From contig NZ_PDJQ01000001.1 in assembly GCF_002563855.1 (NCBI RefSeq), forward strand, positions 558,001-622,000: DNA of 64,000 nt, given 5' to 3'. Below the pieces are notes generated by a model. It searched no databases and had not been told where the DNA came from. It saw only the letters and a list, made by a program, of their open reading frames with translations. Numbering within the stretch: position 1 is the first letter of the stretch; every line of letters starts with the position of its first letter. This stretch comes from Tepidiforma thermophila. Its GTDB lineage: Bacteria > Chloroflexota > Dehalococcoidia > Tepidiformales > Tepidiformaceae. The position numbers and the translations under genes were made by a program. Shown here in pieces: positions 20,002-54,452 of this stretch.

Positions 20002-20007
20002 TATATG
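20002..20007 (+). promoter_or_regulatory. -10 element before the first c-di-AMP riboswitch
   Basis: TATATG, the most A/T-rich hexamer in this stretch, placed a few nt before the riboswitch. No good -35 at 17-18 nt was found. Confidence 0.4.
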
Positions 20008-20010
20008 TAG

Positions 20011-20140
20011 CTGTGCCGAATCGGCGGAACTGCCGCCGAGCGGGGGAACCGTCTCCCTGGGGTGTATCCCGGCTCCGGCCGGGTAGGCGACTCCCCTCGC
20101 CGAACCCGTCAGCTAACCCCGCAGGCGTAGTGGGAGAGGC
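20011..20140 (+). promoter_or_regulatory. c-di-AMP riboswitch (ydaO/yuaA class), copy 1
   Basis: The conserved blocks appear in order: CCGAATC, GCGGGGGAACC, GGGGTGTAT, GGGTAGGCGACTCCCC, then the family signature CCGAACCCGTCAGCTAACC, GCAGGC and GGGAGAGG. Some 110 nt separate it from the next start codon (20255). It differs from the second copy at 54248 in the loops but keeps all core blocks. c-di-AMP normally turns these switches off. Confidence 0.9.
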
Positions 20141-20254
20141 CCGGCAGCCCTCCAGCCTGCCGCACGTGCCTCTCAGGTCCGCAGGGACGTTCGCACCGGG
20201 GCTCTTGCCGCCGGGCGGCTGTCCCTCCAGCACCGCGATGCAAGGAGGCACGCA

Positions 20255-30314: not shown

Positions 30315-30356
30315 TTGACGTTCGCCTGTCAAACCGCCAGATTGCATTTCGACAAT
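30315..30356 (+). promoter_or_regulatory. promoter region of the B12 operon
   Basis: Two readings are possible: TTGACG with an 18-nt spacer to AGATTG, or TGTCAA with an 18-nt spacer to GACAAT (30351-30356). The second is better placed for the riboswitch start. Confidence 0.5.
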
Positions 30357-30361
30357 CGAAG

Positions 30362-30475
30362 ACCGGGAGGGCCCTTCCGCCGCCAGCCGTGCGGGAGGAG
30401 CAGGGGCAAGTCCGGTGCGAATCCGGCGCTGTGCCGCAACTGTGAGGCCGAACGGCCGAGCCAGAAAACCCGCCC
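30362..30475 (+). promoter_or_regulatory. cobalamin riboswitch
   Basis: Core blocks in order: GGGGCAAGTCCGGTGCGAAT, CCGGCGCTGTGCCGCAACTG, GTGAGGCCGAAC, and the B12-box-like GAGCCAGAAAACCCGCC. It is followed by a terminator hairpin at 30533, so the switch probably works by ending transcription when adenosylcobalamin is bound. Confidence 0.93.
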
Positions 30476-30532
30476 AACCGGACCGATGATCCTTCGCGCG
30501 AAAGGGGTCGGTGCCATGGTTCTCGCTACCTG

Positions 30533-30563
30533 AGCCCGCCGCCGAGGCGGGCTTGTTCGTTCT
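30533..30563 (+). terminator. riboswitch expression-platform terminator
   Basis: AGCCCGCC-GCCGA-GGCGGGCT is an 8-bp stem, followed by TGTTCGTTCT. It lies 83 nt before the first gene of the B12 operon. Confidence 0.8.
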
Positions 30564-30645
30564 CCCCGCCTTCCCGGCCGTCCGATGCTGCCGCTGCCGC
30601 GCACACCGCGCGGCCCAGGTTCACCCTGATCTCTAAGGAGTCTCC

Positions 30646-31767
30646 ATGAAACGGCTTGTCCTTGCCTTCGCCGCGGCCCTCGCCGTGCTCCCCGCGGCCG
30701 CCTTCGCCGCGCTTCCCGCCACCGATGCCGTCATCAAAGGCGCAGCCTTCATCAAGACCGTGCAGCGCCCCGACGGCAGCTACGCCGAATCGCCCGGGCA
30801 GACCATCGACGCCATCCTCGCCGTCCGCGCGGCCGGCTACGATCCCCGCCTCGACGTGAAGGACGGCAAGTCCCCGGTCGACTGGCTGATCGCCGCCGCA
30901 CCGTCGATCACCTCCCCCGTCTCAGCGGCGAAAGCAGCGCTCGGCGCGAAAGCGCTCGGCCTCGACCCGAAGAACGTGGGCGGCACCGACCTGGTCGCCA
31001 TCGCCCAGGGCGGCTACGACGCCGAGACCGGCGCCTACGCGAACAACGCCTTCAGCCAGTCGATCGCCATCCTCGGCCTGGCCTGCACCGGCAACCCCGT
31101 CGGCCCGAAGGCGGCCGACAATCTCAAGGCGGCTTCCGTCGAGGGCGGCGGCTGGGGATTCGGCGGCAACGCCGACCCCGATACGACGGCGATCGCCATC
31201 CAGGCCCTCCTCGCGGCCGGCGTCCCGAAGACCGACCCGAAAGTTGCCGAGGGCCTCGCCTGGCTGAAGGCGAACCAGGGCAACGACGGCGGCTGGGGCT
31301 TCGACCCGAACGATTCGAACACCTCGTCGACTGCCTTCGCTATCCAGGCCCTCCTCGCCCTCGGTGAGGACCCGGAATCGGCGGCCTACACCAAGAACGG
31401 TGTCACGCCCGTCCAGTACCTCCTCAGCAAGCAGCTCCCGGACGGCTCCTTCGTCGGCTACGACCCGGCCTTCGCGGCGAACCAGGTGGTGCCTGCGCTC
31501 GCCGGCCGCACCTTCTGCAACGCTGCGGAGACGCCGATCACCCGCACCCGGCCGGCCGCGCAGCCGACGCCGACCCCGCAGCCGACAACCCCGGCGGCCT
31601 CGCCGACGCCGCAGGCCACGACCCCGGCGCCGCGCCCGCCGGCCACCGGCGATACCGCTGCCGCGCAGCCGGGCAGCCCCGCGCCCGCGCTCGCGGCCGG
31701 CGGGCTGCTCCTCCTCGCCCTCGGTGGCGCGGCTGCCGCAGCCGCCCGCCGGCGCACCGGCGCCTGA
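30646..31767 (+). CDS. surface-anchored alpha/alpha-barrel (prenyltransferase-repeat) protein, probable B12 capture domain
   Basis: A 373-residue exported protein. Residues 1-22 are a signal peptide. Residues 25-290 are an alpha/alpha barrel of the prenyltransferase/squalene-cyclase repeat type, with the signature GGGWGF at 168 and DGGWGF at 214, each followed by AIAIQALL-like helices. A Pro/Thr stalk (300-335) contains PPATGD, near a sortase motif, then a membrane anchor (349-366) and RRR. No cyclase active-site Asp box is seen. The N-terminal domain of human intrinsic factor and transcobalamin has this same barrel. AAGGAG lies 8 nt before the ATG. First gene after the cobalamin riboswitch. 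Confidence 0.88.
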   Translation: MKRLVLAFAAALAVLPAAAFAALPATDAVIKGAAFIKTVQRPDGSYAESPGQTIDAILAVRAAGYDPRLDVKDGKSPVDWLIAAAPSITSPVSAAKAALGAKALGLDPKNVGGTDLVAIAQGGYDAETGAYANNAFSQSIAILGLACTGNPVGPKAADNLKAASVEGGGWGFGGNADPDTTAIAIQALLAAGVPKTDPKVAEGLAWLKANQGNDGGWGFDPNDSNTSSTAFAIQALLALGEDPESAAYTKNGVTPVQYLLSKQLPDGSFVGYDPAFAANQVVPALAGRTFCNAAETPITRTRPAAQPTPTPQPTTPAASPTPQATTPAPRPPATGDTAAAQPGSPAPALAAGGLLLLALGGAAAAAARRRTGA

Positions 31768-31774
31768 CCCTGCC

Positions 31775-32860
31775 ATGCACCCGGCGAGCTGGGTCGGCTG
31801 GGTCCTCGCGGTGATGGTGGTGGCCCTCGCCACCACCAACCCGTTCTACCTGTCGCTCCTCCTGCTCGCCGTGGTGCTCGTGGCGGTCGTCGCCCCGCGC
31901 GAAGGCACCGGCGTCGTCAGCTTCCGCGCCCTGGCCGTCTTCGGCGTGGTGATGTTCGCGCTCTCGCTCGGCATCGCCGCCATCAACGGCAGCTACGGCG
32001 ACCACATCCTCTTCACCCTGCCCGGCCCGCGCGTGCCCGAGTGGCTCGGCGGGCTGCGGCTCGGCGGGCCGGTCTCGGCTGAAGGCTTCGCCGCAGCGTC
32101 GATCCGCGGGCTTGCCATTCTCTCCATCCTCTTCGCCTACGGCGTCTTCAACAGCGCCGTGAGCCCCCACCGGCTGCTCCGCTCGACGCCGGCAGCGCTC
32201 TTCCAGGCCAGCCTCGTCGTGACGGTCGGCCTGACGCTCCTCCCGTCGAGCGTGGAGGACCTCCGCCGCGTGCGGGAGATGCGGGCCCTGCGCGGGGCGC
32301 CCGGCGGCCTGCGCGAACTGCCCGCGCTCGTGGTGCCCGCCATCGTCGGCGGCCTCGAACGCTCGCTCCGGCTGGCCGAGGCGATGGAGGCCCGCGGCTA
32401 CGGCGCGAGCCCGCCGCTCCCTGCGCGGGCCCGGCTCGCTGCCGCTGCTTCGGCCCCGCTGCTCATCGCCGCGGCCTGGCTCTGGTTCTACGAAACGGAC
32501 TGGCGGCCGGCGGCCCTCGGCCTCTTCGCAGCTGCGCTGGCGCTCCTCGCGTTTTGGTGGAGAGCCGCCAGCCGCGCCCGTCCCGTGACCCGCTTCGAAC
32601 GGGAGCGGCTGCCGGCGGCCGAGCGGGCCGGGCTGGTCCTCGCCGGGGCGCTCGCCCTCGGCGCGCTCGGCCTGCGCCTCACCGGCCACGGGGCGATGGA
32701 CTACAACCCGTTCGCCGGCCTCGAGGTGCCGGGCTTCGAACTCCTGCCCGCGCTCATCGCCGTCGCCAGCGCCTGGCCGGCTGTCCTCCTCATCGCCCGG
32801 CCCGCCCCTGCCCCGGCCGCCTCGCCCGAGGCGCGGTTTGCCCCGGAGCGCGCCCCGTGA
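31775..32860 (+). CDS. ecfT: ECF transporter T component (EcfT)
   Basis: A 361-residue integral membrane protein that couples the ATPases to the substrate-binding S component. The EcfT coupling signature EAMEARGYG is present in LERSLRLAEAMEARGYGAS, with further ERGY-like features and about eight membrane segments. It is longer than typical EcfT because of two extra C-terminal membrane spans. It starts 7 nt after the barrel protein and overlaps ecfA (GTGA). Confidence 0.9.
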   Translation: MHPASWVGWVLAVMVVALATTNPFYLSLLLLAVVLVAVVAPREGTGVVSFRALAVFGVVMFALSLGIAAINGSYGDHILFTLPGPRVPEWLGGLRLGGPVSAEGFAAASIRGLAILSILFAYGVFNSAVSPHRLLRSTPAALFQASLVVTVGLTLLPSSVEDLRRVREMRALRGAPGGLRELPALVVPAIVGGLERSLRLAEAMEARGYGASPPLPARARLAAAASAPLLIAAAWLWFYETDWRPAALGLFAAALALLAFWWRAASRARPVTRFERERLPAAERAGLVLAGALALGALGLRLTGHGAMDYNPFAGLEVPGFELLPALIAVASAWPAVLLIARPAPAPAASPEARFAPERAP

Positions 32861-34449
32861 CGGCGCTGGCCAGCCTCCAGGGCGTCACCTACACCTACCC
32901 GGGCGCGGCCGGGCCCGCCCTCGAAGGCGCCGCGCTCGACCTCGAACCGGGCGCCTTCGCCCTCGTGGCCGGCCCCTCCGCGAGCGGCAAATCCACGCTC
33001 CTCCGCGTCTTCAACGGCCTCGTCCCGCAGTTCCACGGCGGGACCATCTCCGGCAGCGCCCGCGTGGCCGGGCTCGACCCCTTCGCCACGCCGGCCCGGC
33101 GGATGGCCCTGGCCGTCGGCATGGTCTTCCAGGAGCCGGAGGCCCAGGCCGTGGCCGAAACCGTCCAGGACGAAATCGTCTTCGGCATGGAGCAGCAGGC
33201 CGTCCCGCCGGCCGAGATGCGCCGGCGGCTCGAACGGGTGCTCGCCGAGCTCGGCATCGGCCACCTCCGCGGGCGGCGGCTCGCGACCCTCTCCGGCGGC
33301 GAACGCCAGCGGGTCGCCATCGCCGCTGTCCTCGCGCTCGAACCGCAGCTCCTCGTCCTCGACGAACCGACCTCCCAGCTCGACGGCGACGGCGCCGATG
33401 CCGTCCTCGCCGCGGTCGAGGCCCTCCACCGCCGGGGCGACCTCGCCATCGTCCTCGCCGAGCACCGGCTCGAACGCCTCCTCCACCGGGTCGATGCCGT
33501 TGTCGCCGTTGAGGGCGGCCGGGTGGCTGCCGCGCCGCCGGGCGAAGCGGCGCAGACGCTCCGCTCGGTGCCCCCCGCGGTCGAACTCGCCCGGTGGCTC
33601 GGGGCCGACCCGCTCCCGCTGACGGTCGACGGCGTGCGTGCGGCCCTCTCCGGCCGGCTCCCGGCAGCACGCCCGCGGCCGTACCCCCCGCCGGGCGACG
33701 AGCTGCTCCGCGCCGAGGGGCTGACCGTGGCCTACGGGCCGGTCGAGGCGCTGCGCGGCGTGTCGCTCACCCTGCGCGAAGGGGAGCTGGTCGCGCTCGT
33801 CGGGCCCAACGGCAGCGGCAAGACGACCCTCTTCCGCGCGCTCGCGGGCCTGGTCGAACCGGGCCGCGGCGAGATGCGCTTCGCCCGCGCGGCCGCGCCC
33901 CGCTCACCCCGGGAGCGGACCCGCCACGCCGGCCTCGTCCCGCAGGACCCGGCGCTCGCCCTCTACCAGGAGCAGGTCGCCGCCGAGCTCGCCGAGACGC
34001 TCCGCCACCGCGGCCTCCCCCGCGGCCGGGCCGACGTCGAAGCCGCCGCCCGGGCCTGGGGCATCGCCGACCTCCTCGCCCGCGACCCGCGCGACCTCTC
34101 CGTCGGCCAGCAGCAGCGGGTCGCCATCGCCGCCATGCTCGCCCACGGCCCCCGAACCTGGCTGATGGACGAACCGACCCGCGGCATGGACGGCCCGGCG
34201 AAGGCCTGGCTCGCCGCCCGCCTGCGCGACCACGCCGCCGCCGGCGGCGCGGCCATCGTCGCCACCCACGACATCGAAGCAGCCGCGCTCTTCGCCACCC
34301 GCGTCGTCGGGCTCCGCGCCGGCGAGGTCGTCTTCGACCTGCCCGCCCGCGAGGCGTTCGCGGCCGATGGGCCCCTCCCCACCCAGGTCGCCCGGCTCGT
34401 GCCCGGGGCGGTCACCCTCGACGAGGTCGTGCTCCCGTGCGCCGCCTGA
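32857..34449 (+). CDS. fused double ATP-binding protein of an ECF transporter (EcfA1-EcfA2)
   Basis: A 530-residue protein with two complete ABC ATPase domains. Domain 1: Walker A GPSASGKST (39-47), signature LSGGERQRVAIA, Walker B LLVLDEPTSQLD. Domain 2: Walker A GPNGSGKTT near 316, signature LSVGQQQRVAIAA, Walker B TWLMDEPTRGMD. Domain 2 has LSVGQ in place of the usual LSGGQ, and WLMDE in place of LLLDE. It would power the EcfT/CbrT importer. In many ECF systems these are two genes; here they are one, with a linker at 225-290. Confidence 0.94.
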   Translation: MTALASLQGVTYTYPGAAGPALEGAALDLEPGAFALVAGPSASGKSTLLRVFNGLVPQFHGGTISGSARVAGLDPFATPARRMALAVGMVFQEPEAQAVAETVQDEIVFGMEQQAVPPAEMRRRLERVLAELGIGHLRGRRLATLSGGERQRVAIAAVLALEPQLLVLDEPTSQLDGDGADAVLAAVEALHRRGDLAIVLAEHRLERLLHRVDAVVAVEGGRVAAAPPGEAAQTLRSVPPAVELARWLGADPLPLTVDGVRAALSGRLPAARPRPYPPPGDELLRAEGLTVAYGPVEALRGVSLTLREGELVALVGPNGSGKTTLFRALAGLVEPGRGEMRFARAAAPRSPRERTRHAGLVPQDPALALYQEQVAAELAETLRHRGLPRGRADVEAAARAWGIADLLARDPRDLSVGQQQRVAIAAMLAHGPRTWLMDEPTRGMDGPAKAWLAARLRDHAAAGGAAIVATHDIEAAALFATRVVGLRAGEVVFDLPAREAFAADGPLPTQVARLVPGAVTLDEVVLPCAA

Positions 34450-35288
34450 TCGCCGTGCTCGCGGCGGCCGCTGCCCTGGCGCCCTTCGCGGCCCGCGCCG
34501 ACGGCGAGGCCGGGCTCGTCATCCAGGTCGGCGACCAGGTCACCACCTACTGCGTGCCGTTTACCGGCGACAGCATCTCCGGCGAGCGCCTCCTGGCCGC
34601 CAGCGGCCTGCCGGTCGAGCTGTTCGGCGGCAGCTCGGGGCGCGTCGTCTGCGCCATCGGGCAGGTCGGCTGCTTCAACCCCTCCTCGTTCGACAGCTGC
34701 TTCTGCGAGTGCAAAGGGAACGATTGCACCTACTGGGCGTTCTTCACCCGCGCCTACGGCAAGGGCTGGGTCTACTCCTCGGTCGGGATTTCGCTCGCGC
34801 GGGCGAAGGACGGCGAGGTCCACGGCTGGAAGTGGGGCCGCGGCGGCCCTTCGAGCGCCCCGGCGCCGGCCGATATCACCTTCGAACAGATCTGCGGCTA
34901 CCCGCCCCGCGGCGGCACAGCGCCGACGCCGCTCCCGCCGACGCCGCTCCCGCCGACGTCGACGTCCGTGCCGGCCCTCCAGCCCTCGCCGACCGCGGGC
35001 GCCGCTGCCCCGGCGAGCCCGGCGGCGACCTCGGCCGCCAGCCCGGAAGCCCCGGGCGCAACGATGACGCTCGCTCCATCCCCCGCCGCGACCGCCGTCA
35101 TCACCATCGTCCCGCAGAGCCCGGCGGCTCCCCCGGCGCCGGCAGGCACCGCCGCTGCCGCCGGCGCGCCCGCGGACAGCGGGGACGGCAGCTCCACCAT
35201 GCGCCTCGCCGCGTTCGGACTGCTCGCGGGGGCCCTGCTCGCCGCGATCGGCGGTGCTGCTGCCTGGAGGGCGCGCCGTGGCCGTTAG
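34437..35288 (+). CDS. surface-anchored DUF4430/transcobalamin-beta-like protein
   Basis: A 283-residue exported protein. Residues 1-21 are the signal peptide. Residues 26-137 form a small Cys-rich domain (GLVIQVGDQVTTYCVPF, then SGERLLAASGLPVEL, CAIGQVGC, CFCECKGNDCTYWAFF, GWVYSSVGIS). This is the pattern of the DUF4430 family, which resembles the C-terminal beta domain of transcobalamin. Seven cysteines (39, 72, 79, 88, 90, 92, 97) suggest disulfides. A long Pro/Thr/Ala stalk (140-250) and a membrane anchor (257-277) follow. It starts inside the ecfA end (13-nt overlap), firmly in the B12 operon. Confidence 0.85.
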   Translation: MRRLIAVLAAAAALAPFAARADGEAGLVIQVGDQVTTYCVPFTGDSISGERLLAASGLPVELFGGSSGRVVCAIGQVGCFNPSSFDSCFCECKGNDCTYWAFFTRAYGKGWVYSSVGISLARAKDGEVHGWKWGRGGPSSAPAPADITFEQICGYPPRGGTAPTPLPPTPLPPTSTSVPALQPSPTAGAAAPASPAATSAASPEAPGATMTLAPSPAATAVITIVPQSPAAPPAPAGTAAAAGAPADSGDGSSTMRLAAFGLLAGALLAAIGGAAAWRARRGR

Positions 35289-36180
35289 CCTGCCTGCCCT
35301 CGCCCGCCCGCGCGCTGCGGCCCGCCTCGACCCCGGCGCCGTCGTCTTCGTGCTGCTCAACCTGCTCGGGCTGTTCGCCTACCTCCACCCCTTCTTCGCG
35401 CCCGGCGTCGTCGAGGAAGGCTCGGCCTGGTTCGCCCACCGCACCGATGCCCCGGCGGTGTTCGCAGGGATTGCGGCCCTCTGCCTCGTCCTCGTCGTGG
35501 CCGACCTCGCCGGCGGGGGCGTCGACAGCAAGCGGCTGGCGGTGCTGGGGGTGCTGTCGGCGCTCGCAGCGGTGCTCCGCACCATCACCCTGCCCGCGGG
35601 GGCGAACCTCTACTTCTTCCTGGTCATCCTCGGCGCGTTCACCTTCGGCGCCCGGCTGGGCTTCCTGCTCGGCGCGCTCTCCTTCTTCCTCAGCGCCGTC
35701 GTGACCGGCGGGTTCGGCCCCTGGCTGCCGTTCCAGATGTTCGCCGCGGCCTGGATGGGCGCCACCGCCGGGCTGCTCGGCCGGGCCGCCGACCGGGCGG
35801 AGATGGGCCCCCGCAGCCGCCTCGCGCTGGTCATCGCCTTCGGATCGGCCTGGGGCCTCATCTATGGCGCCATCACCAACCTCTGGGCCTGGCCCTGGAT
35901 CGTCTCCGGGCCGGATATCTCCTACGAACCCGGCCTCGGCCCGGCCGAAACCCTCCGCCGCTACTGGAACTACTACCTCCTCACCAGCCTCGGCTGGGAC
36001 CTTTTCCGGACCGTCTGCAACGCCGTCGTCCTTGCCGCCGTGGGCGGGCCCATCCTCCGCGCGCTCCTCCGCTTCCGCGAACGGTTCGCCTTCCAGGTCG
36101 ACGCTGGCCCGCCTACGTCCCGCAGCCGGCCGGCGCGACCGCCCGCGCCGCCGTCCGCCCTGCCCCGTCGTACGCCGTGA
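35278..36180 (+). CDS. ECF transporter S component, CbrT-like (cobalamin)
   Basis: A 300-residue membrane protein, about seven segments, which would bind the vitamin. GANLYFFLVILGAFTFGARLGFLLGALSFFLSAVVTGGFGPWLPFQMF is an S-component core of the CbrT type. Cobalamin is assigned from the riboswitch and the companion proteins rather than from binding residues. GTG 35278 has GGAGG 8 nt upstream, inside the previous gene. Its last 68 nt overlap, on the opposite strand, the end of the sigma-factor gene. The C-terminal tail is Pro/Arg-rich and may be dispensable. Confidence 0.88.
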   Translation: MAVSLPALARPRAAARLDPGAVVFVLLNLLGLFAYLHPFFAPGVVEEGSAWFAHRTDAPAVFAGIAALCLVLVVADLAGGGVDSKRLAVLGVLSALAAVLRTITLPAGANLYFFLVILGAFTFGARLGFLLGALSFFLSAVVTGGFGPWLPFQMFAAAWMGATAGLLGRAADRAEMGPRSRLALVIAFGSAWGLIYGAITNLWAWPWIVSGPDISYEPGLGPAETLRRYWNYYLLTSLGWDLFRTVCNAVVLAAVGGPILRALLRFRERFAFQVDAGPPTSRSRPARPPAPPSALPRRTP

Positions 36181-37993
36181 AGGTGACCTGCCCCACGCCC
36201 TGGAGGCTTACCTGCGTGCCGAGCGTCCAGCGCGTGCCGCCCGCGTGGCCGAGGTCGAGGGTCACCGGGCCGCCCTCGCCGGCGAACGTCACGGTCACCC
36301 GCACGACGGCGACGTCATCAGCCGCCTCGGCGACAAAGTTCGCGCCCGGCCGCGACGCCCCGGCGCAGGCTGCGCTCGCCGAGAGGAGCTGCGGCGGCTG
36401 CCCGCCCCTCCGGGCCGTGACGGGCAGGGTGAAGCTGTTCGCCGGCCCGGTCACCGTCACCGTCGCCGGGTAGTCGCCCTCCTCGGCCGGGAGCGCCCCG
36501 GGGTCGACCCGCAGGGTCACCGTCACCGAACCGAAGGCCGGCACCGTCCCGCCCGCAGGCCCGACCAGCCAGGCGGCGCCGTAGGCGAGGGAAAAGCCCG
36601 CCGGGCAGCCCGTCGCGTTCTGGAGCTGGAAGCTCGCCTGGCCGCCGGCCGGGATGGTCAGCCCGCCCGTGCCCGGCGGCAGGCCGATGGCCGGGGTGCA
36701 CGGCGTGGGGCTCGCGGTCGGTGTGGCGACGGTGCCGGTCGGCGACGGGTTCGCCGTGGCCGCGGCGGTGGGCGTCACGGGCGCCGGCGTTGATGTCGCA
36801 GCGGGCGTGGAGGTGGCGGCGGTGCCGCCCGGCGCCCCGCCCGACGATGGGCTCGGAGGCGCCGTGGGCGAACCGGCGGCAGCGGCCGTGGCCGTGGCCG
36901 TCGCCGAAGGGCTGACGGGGATGATGATGGTCGAACTGCCGCCCGGCCGCGGGGTCTCGCCGGCGGGCGCACCCATGCGCAGGCCGTTGCCGTCGCCCCG
37001 GGTGAGCGCGAGCGGGCTGAACGGCAGCACAAGGGCGAGGACCAGGAGCCCGGCGGCCACCCCGAGCAGCGCGCCCGCGCGGAGGAACTGCGGCGAGGTG
37101 AACCCGTGGTGCGCGTCCCGGGCCGGGCCGCCCGGCGGCTGCTTGGGCTGGCCCGGGGGCTCCCGGCGGGCCGGCGCCGGCGGCCGCGGCTGCCGGAGCA
37201 GCTGCTCCAGCCCGGCCGCGCGGATGCCCGGCGGCGGCGCCACCGGCGCCAGCGCCCCGAAGACGGCGAGCGGCGCGAGCTTCCGCCGCCGCTCGCGGCA
37301 GTCGGCGCACCGCTCCACGTGCCGGTCGACCTCCCTCCGGATGGCCGGGGTGAGCGCGCCCCCGGCCGCGGCCGGTGCGAGCACCGCCGCGAGCCCTTCG
37401 CACCGTTCGCCGGCCTGCTTCCAGAGCACGTAGGCCGAAATCGCGCTCTCCACCGCCTTCTTCAGCCGGTGGAGGAGCACATAGGCGTTGTTCCGGGTGA
37501 TGCCGAGCGCCTGCGCAATCTCCTCGGCGTCGAGCCCCTGCCGCACGTGGAGGTCGAGCAGCGAGAGCTGGCGCGGGTCGAGCGCGCTGGCCGCCTCCCA
37601 GACGAGCCGGGCTGCCGCCGCGGCCTCGGCCGCCTCCTCGGGGCTGGCGAAGCGGGAAGTGTCCACCACATCGAGGGTGAGCTCTTCGCCGTCGTCGCCG
37701 GCGGCCGTGAGCGGCCGGGTTCGGCCCCGCCGTTCGAGCCGGTTGAGCGCGGTGTTCCGCGCGATGCTGAACAGCCAGCCGCGGAAACTGGCCCCCTGCT
37801 TGAGCCCGCCGAGCCCGTTCATGGCCTTGAGGAACGTCTCCTGCGCAATGTCGGCGGCCTCGTCGCGGTCGCGCACCAGGCGCGCAGCAAAGTCGTAGAC
37901 GGCATCGACGTAGCGCTCGTACAGCGAGGCGAGCGCCTGCCGGTCGCCGCCCTGTGCGGCTTCGACGAGGTCCGCGTCAGTGAGCTGGGTCAT
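36113..37993 (-). CDS. membrane-tethered ECF sigma factor fused to a zinc-finger and an outside domain
   Basis: A 626-residue single chain. Residues 1-90 are sigma region 2 (AADIAQETFLKAM). Residues 130-190 are region 4 (EEIAQALGITRNNAYVLLHRL). Residues 195-240 resemble an anti-sigma zinc finger (His225-x3-Cys229-x2-Cys232, EVDRHVERCADCRERRRK). A membrane span lies at about 305-328. A long Ser/Thr/Pro/Ala stalk follows, then residues 445-626 look like Ig-type beta domains outside the cell. So the sigma factor, its likely inhibitor and a sensor are in one protein. GGAG lies 6 nt before the ATG. Release might need proteolysis. Confidence 0.88.
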   Translation of the reverse strand: MTQLTDADLVEAAQGGDRQALASLYERYVDAVYDFAARLVRDRDEAADIAQETFLKAMNGLGGLKQGASFRGWLFSIARNTALNRLERRGRTRPLTAAGDDGEELTLDVVDTSRFASPEEAAEAAAAARLVWEAASALDPRQLSLLDLHVRQGLDAEEIAQALGITRNNAYVLLHRLKKAVESAISAYVLWKQAGERCEGLAAVLAPAAAGGALTPAIRREVDRHVERCADCRERRRKLAPLAVFGALAPVAPPPGIRAAGLEQLLRQPRPPAPARREPPGQPKQPPGGPARDAHHGFTSPQFLRAGALLGVAAGLLVLALVLPFSPLALTRGDGNGLRMGAPAGETPRPGGSSTIIIPVSPSATATATAAAAGSPTAPPSPSSGGAPGGTAATSTPAATSTPAPVTPTAAATANPSPTGTVATPTASPTPCTPAIGLPPGTGGLTIPAGGQASFQLQNATGCPAGFSLAYGAAWLVGPAGGTVPAFGSVTVTLRVDPGALPAEEGDYPATVTVTGPANSFTLPVTARRGGQPPQLLSASAACAGASRPGANFVAEAADDVAVVRVTVTFAGEGGPVTLDLGHAGGTRWTLGTQVSLQGVGQVTFTAYDGAGRTAARAVAPAGCGT

Positions 37994-54236: not shown

Positions 54237-54242
54237 TATACT
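54237..54242 (+). promoter_or_regulatory. -10 element before the second c-di-AMP riboswitch
   Basis: TATACT, 6 nt before the riboswitch. No obvious TTGAC -35 upstream. Confidence 0.5.
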
Positions 54243-54247
54243 GTGCG

Positions 54248-54371
54248 AAGCCGAATCTCCGCCCACGCGGAGAGCGGGGGACCCAACGCACGGGGTGAAT
54301 CGCGCGCAGGCGCGTAGGCAACTCCCAATGCCGAACCCGTCAGCTAACCTCGCAGGCTCTTGGGAGAGACG
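54248..54371 (+). promoter_or_regulatory. c-di-AMP riboswitch (ydaO/yuaA class), copy 2
   Basis: The same ordered blocks as copy 1: GCCGAATCT, GCGGGGGACCC, CGGGGTGAAT, GCGTAGGCAACTCCC, CCGAACCCGTCAGCTAACC, TCGCAGGC and TTGGGAGAGAC. About 80 nt follow to the MFS start, with no terminator seen, so control may act on translation or through an unseen hairpin. Confidence 0.92.
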
Positions 54372-54452
54372 CGGAACCGGCACCTCCCGTCTCTCGAGGC
54401 CACCGGCCGCACCGCACCCGGCGCGGCCACCGGACTGTCACGGGGGAACGGG

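Follow-up and report, generated by a model that had tools for sequence, protein, structure and literature searches.

Burroughs, Balaji, Iyer and Aravind described in 2007 bacterial transcobalamin-type domains and alpha/alpha toroids encoded in CbiO/CbiQ operons, predicted that they scavenge vitamin B12 or its precursors, and argued that animals acquired transcobalamin-type domains from bacteria (PMC1796856). On the side of import, the structure 6FNP is that of ECF-CbrT, an energy-coupling factor (ECF) transporter whose S component, CbrT, takes both cobalamin and cobinamide (PMC5997447). We analyzed a stretch of 64,000 nucleotides (the window) from Tepidiforma thermophila, a member of the Chloroflexota with a 2.74 Mb single-contig genome. 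It contains a cobalamin riboswitch followed by five genes, G1 to G5, which encode an ECF importer and two proteins with predicted signal peptides, and one of the latter, G4, is modelled with the beta-domain fold of transcobalamin. In ECF importers, the membrane S component is usually taken as the sole substrate-binding protein. The reading that we favor, with a probability of about 0.6, is that the operon serves B12-repressed corrinoid scavenging, in which G1 and G4 clamp one corrinoid and feed it to the CbrT-like importer. If this is true, a carrier-like pair at the cell surface would add an extracellular capture step to ECF import and explain how such bacteria compete for scarce corrinoids.

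The operon and the fold of G4

The cobalamin riboswitch aptamer (RF00174) lies at 30352-30491 on the + strand of the window and matches the full length of the model (positions 1-189) with a score of 48.2 bits, well over the gathering score (31.5). It is followed by a terminator-like hairpin (30531-30555, +; -19.4 kcal/mol, z -1.97), which is composed of a 10-pair stem and a T-rich tail and is probably the expression platform of the riboswitch. The five genes that come next are all encoded on the + strand, and neighbors either overlap or are separated by 7 bases at most. G1 (30646-31767, 373 amino acids) is composed of a predicted signal peptide, an alpha/alpha barrel (approximately 30709-31530), a Pro/Thr stalk and a C-terminal membrane anchor. 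G4 (34437-35288, 283 amino acids) is a separate gene 2.7 kb away with a similar layout, in which a predicted signal peptide precedes a Cys-rich domain of the transcobalamin beta type (34497-34910), a Pro/Thr stalk and a C-terminal anchor. According to hydropathy and composition, both proteins start with a hydrophobic stretch, continue into a stalk rich in Pro and Thr and end in a single hydrophobic C-terminal segment with a basic tail, which suggests that both are exported and anchored in the membrane. An initial annotation made from the DNA sequence alone had described the riboswitch, the terminator and the five tightly packed genes in the same way, and its gene-by-gene account agrees with the profile matches and the hydropathy.

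We modelled the G4 domain with AlphaFold2 from an alignment of 44 sequences and obtained a predicted local distance difference test score (pLDDT) of 94.9 and a predicted template modelling score (pTM) of 0.89. The top 19 Foldseek matches of this model comprised chains of the animal carriers transcobalamin, intrinsic factor and haptocorrin as well as 3u7z, which is a protein of Ruminococcus gnavus. With a structural aligner, the model superposed on these matches at approximately 2.0 Å over 95-98 residues (Z 10.9-12.0, as compared to 5.7 for the next fold), despite a sequence identity of 13-17% to the beta domain of the animal carriers. Its secondary structure elements (E3-11, E14-22, H29-34, E40-45, E48-54 and the remaining strands) include a beta-hairpin after the helix, as in the transcobalamin-type clade of SLBB beta-grasp domains, of which this hairpin is the mark (PMC1796856). 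As modelled, G4 has the transcobalamin beta-domain fold.

The domain had initially been called DUF4430-like, and the structure agrees with this name. The link rests on structure because Pfam gives no sequence match: the DUF4430 profile matched neither G4 nor any other part of the genome, and only 1 of the 44 G4 relatives at an E-value of 0.21. Within the G4 family, cysteines appear and disappear strictly in pairs (C52/C68 are present in 43 of the 44 sequences, C59/C70 in 30 and C72/C77 in 14), and some members are devoid of both C59/C70 and C72/C77. These paired residues, all between domain positions 52 and 77, probably form disulfides, as expected for an extracellular domain.

The remaining three genes encode the importer. 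G2 (31775-32860, 361 amino acids) is an EcfT-like transmembrane component, as judged from a CbiQ match that remains below the Pfam cut-off (21.1 bits, cut-off 25) and from its position, which is kept across neighborhoods. G3 (32857-34449, 530 amino acids) is a fused double EcfA ATPase with two ABC_tran stretches (189.7 bits in Pfam), and its best NCBIfam matches are ECF ATPases. G5 (35278-36180, 300 amino acids) matches ECF_trnsprt with 57 bits, well over the cut-off of 30.7, and its nearest named loci are found in Dehalococcoidia, Tepidiformaceae and Thermoflexaceae. When the profile of the G5 family was compared to solved S components, the match to 6fnp had an E-value of 1.1e-9, while those to FolT ranged from 4e-4 to 5e-4. 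The assignment of these genes as EcfT, double EcfA and a CbrT-like S component is therefore borne out.

Conserved neighborhood and natural fusions

We searched a sample of 301 Chloroflexota genomes, where several loci end at contig edges, and found relatives of G4 in 71 of them. A cobalamin riboswitch on the same strand, sought within 6 kb upstream, lies 0.2-4 kb ahead of the G4 relative in 63 of these 71 genomes, while approximately 0.1 genome is expected by chance. In 33 of 40 neighborhoods the G4 relative adjoins a G1-type barrel, usually together with EcfT and EcfA and often with the S component. We also assembled an independent set of 80 loci, including Actinomycetota, that was anchored on the CbrT-like S component. 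Barrel and beta domain are both present in 38 of these loci, 15 have the beta domain only, two the barrel only and 25 neither, with the counts of absence being upper bounds because many loci end at contig edges. As for the two barrel-only loci, the beta gene lies elsewhere in the same genome for L078, while for L102 no beta gene was found in the genome and the contig starts near the barrel. A cobalamin riboswitch is present in six of the eight Actinomycetota loci that were searched. Overall, many genomes combine barrel and G4 with an adjacent CbrT-like S component behind a B12 riboswitch, in agreement with what the initial annotation had anticipated.

Two consecutive G4-type genes are found in some Chloroflexota loci, and others have tandem barrels within a single open reading frame (ORF); domain genes are repeated in L031 (782-1908), L033 (1486-2517) and L057 (6198-7533). 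The stoichiometry of the two domains therefore varies.

Nine loci encode barrel and beta domain as a fusion in one ORF. The barrel comes first, as in transcobalamin, in L074, L088 and L135, and the beta domain comes first in L039, L089, L095, L123, L137 and L140. The fusion of L135, from Nocardioidaceae, lies directly behind a cobalamin riboswitch and consists of one barrel, one beta domain, a stalk and a membrane anchor. We modelled the second barrel of L088 together with its beta domain (pLDDT 90, pTM 0.75). The 15 best Foldseek matches of this fused model all belong to transcobalamin, intrinsic factor or haptocorrin (E-values from 2e-12 to 5e-9); these chains align over both domains and rank ahead of any cyclase. 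A binder made of two separate chains is workable, since human TC-alpha and TC-beta that were expressed separately co-elute only with cobalamin (PMC5599065).

The genome also uses B12. It encodes MetH and a cobalamin adenosyltransferase, and CbiC, the single marker of ring synthesis that was searched, has no match over the cut-off anywhere in it. Judging from this gene content, the genome probably depends on corrinoid uptake. This gene content, the nearness of G5 to CbrT and the first matches of the L088 model to animal carriers support the clamp, as do the fold of G4, the riboswitches, the adjacency of barrel and beta domain, the loci anchored on the S component and the nine fusions. When cobalamin is scarce, the riboswitch would let transcription through, and the two anchored extracellular proteins would be made together with the importer. 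G4 with its domain of the transcobalamin beta type and G1 with its barrel, the counterpart of the alpha domain, would then hold one corrinoid on their membrane stalks, with the bridging ligand bringing the two proteins together. The corrinoid would be handed to G5, and EcfT and the double EcfA would drive it across the membrane with ATP. We put forward more tentatively, at slightly less than even odds, the narrower proposal that this is the first split transcobalamin, in which two anchored surface proteins close on the corrinoid only upon binding and feed an ECF transporter.

Evidence against the clamp and alternative explanations

Several observations weigh against a joint clamp. The barrel alone, which matches SQHop_cyclase_C and Prenyltrans in Pfam, has squalene-hopene cyclases as its nearest solved relatives both by profile and by structure, the latter compared for the fused relative L088. 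The match of G1 to the animal family Cobalamin_bind (PF01122) is just under the cut-off of 25 (24.9 bits, E-value 1.2e-5), and 5 of the 46 members of the barrel family match this profile. By itself, the barrel is no proof of a role in B12 binding and has no specific likeness to the alpha domain of the carriers; the match to transcobalamin that the initial annotation had expected of it is not specific. Moreover, in two Chloroflexota families, f38 and f58 (L059, L060, L061, L062, L070 and L071), the operon combines the riboswitch and the G4 relative with EcfT, EcfA and S but lacks a barrel, and a search of their genomes for a G1-type barrel returned none of full length, with only partial weak matches or none at all. 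The placement of the two domains in the L088 model also differs from the closed holo form, with a root mean square deviation of 18-19 Å over both domains. This placement neither supports nor excludes the clamp, because the animal domains assemble only with ligand and the model contains none. Finally, a second cobalamin riboswitch in the T. thermophila genome (L004, 1501-1617) precedes a FecCD-type permease (1734-2927, +; genome C1:2325668 onward), and therefore the G1-G5 system need not be the main route for B12. A match to a GATase_3 (CobB/CobQ-type) approximately 8 kb beyond the permease suggests a separate cluster for corrinoid salvage, and the genome may have two importers, perhaps serving different corrinoids. 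The two-protein clamp proposed initially is thus upheld in part, by the fold of G4, the co-occurrence, the fusions and the CbrT-like S component, but its barrel is unspecific, the modelled placement is not closed and the pair is not obligatory.

The first alternative, which we consider unlikely, is that G4 alone acts as a surface receptor for corrinoids and that the barrel is an accessory, directed at another ligand or at the cell wall, so that no joint clamp forms. The families f38 and f58 speak for this explanation: since lineages with G4 and without the G1-type barrel exist, the importer seems to have the beta-type protein as its invariant partner, with the barrel frequent but dispensable. 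The 15 loci with only the beta gene and the unspecific barrel point in the same direction. However, the fusions, in which either domain may come first, and the frequent adjacency of barrel and beta domain argue for joint action.

A second alternative, which we regard as quite improbable, keeps the operon but changes its substrate to something related to B12, either cobalt or a corrinoid that is incomplete or of another kind, for example cobinamide, and leaves cobalamin to the FecCD-type importer. The second riboswitch ahead of that permease is consistent with this explanation, as is the CbiQ-like nature of G2, and cobalt transporters are also found under cobalamin riboswitches (PMC3766115). 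Nevertheless, G5 resembles CbrT and not the S components of cobalt transporters, and a carrier-type beta domain is unexpected for a bare metal ion. Import of cobinamide would fit corrinoid scavenging by G1 and G4 as well, since CbrT takes both compounds (PMC5997447).

That G1 is a terpenoid-type enzyme which is exported and lies next to G4 by accident is highly improbable, although squalene-hopene cyclases are the nearest solved sequences and folds of its barrel. We rejected a terpene cyclase given the B12 context, the predicted export signal and anchor, the conservation of neighborhood and riboswitch across the phylum, and the absence of the DXDD cyclase motif from all 46 family members. The barrel belongs to the squalene-cyclase/prenyltransferase fold but, as the motif is absent, is probably not a cyclase.

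The window also hosts two c-di-AMP riboswitches (RF00379) at 20004-20141 (+) and 54239-54373 (+), with 89 and 92 bits. On the - strand, an ORF of 626 amino acids (36113-37993) overlaps the 3' end of G5. Judging from its sequence, it begins with a sigma-factor-like part and goes on to a Cys/His stretch resembling a zinc finger, a hydrophobic segment, a stalk rich in Pro and Thr and an extended C-terminal part, and thus apparently joins a sigma factor to a region that is exported.

Comparison with known systems

Bacterial B12 scavengers of the transcobalamin kind are already known, as a prediction. What is new here is the split pair, the Pfam-invisible family of G4 and its range, and the structural support. 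In the open literature, where absence is weak evidence, we found no description of the two-chain, doubly anchored form, of the G4 family and its spread in Chloroflexota and Actinomycetota, of an operon in which this family and a CbrT-like S component share a riboswitch, or of the structural support. Literature searches on SCO2321, on RUMGNA_00854 and on bacterial proteins that resemble transcobalamin and have riboswitches returned nothing useful.

The SLBB proteins of Burroughs et al. share with the window system the beta-grasp with a hairpin after the helix, export or anchoring, a toroid alongside, and operons with CbiO and CbiQ. In those proteins, however, toroid and beta domain are fused in one chain and occur mostly in low-GC Gram-positives (PMC1796856). 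The window system consists instead of two proteins, predicted to be anchored separately, in Chloroflexota; its beta-domain family is invisible to DUF4430, and its operon includes a riboswitch as well as an S component of the CbrT type. ECF-CbrT of Lactobacillus delbrueckii has the same type of S component with EcfT and EcfA, but it relies on a shared ECF module and has no extracellular capture protein (PMC5997447). The window system differs in having fused ATPases, a module encoded inside the operon and two putative surface proteins. The NCBIfam families SCO2321 and SCO2322 of Streptomyces, whose locus tags are consecutive, are distant relatives of G1 and G4, respectively. Both window proteins match them well below the curated cut-offs, several proteins of the Actinomycetota loci also match below cut-off, and our results suggest a function for these families, whose names carry none.

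These findings bear on the origin of the animal B12 carriers. The initial annotation had described the operon as splitting the animal-type binder, a wording that hints at the wrong direction, since the published argument is that the fused form went from bacteria to animals (PMC1796856). One- and two-chain forms coexist in Chloroflexota and Actinomycetota, and the proposed bacterial ancestry can therefore be tested with many more sequences. The two folds of the window proteins are also those of transcobalamin, intrinsic factor and haptocorrin. The animal carriers are, however, single soluble chains taken up by receptor endocytosis, whereas the window encodes two chains, predicted to be anchored in the membrane, beside an ECF importer. 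Bacteria thus probably share the animal way of capturing B12, with the binder in two pieces.

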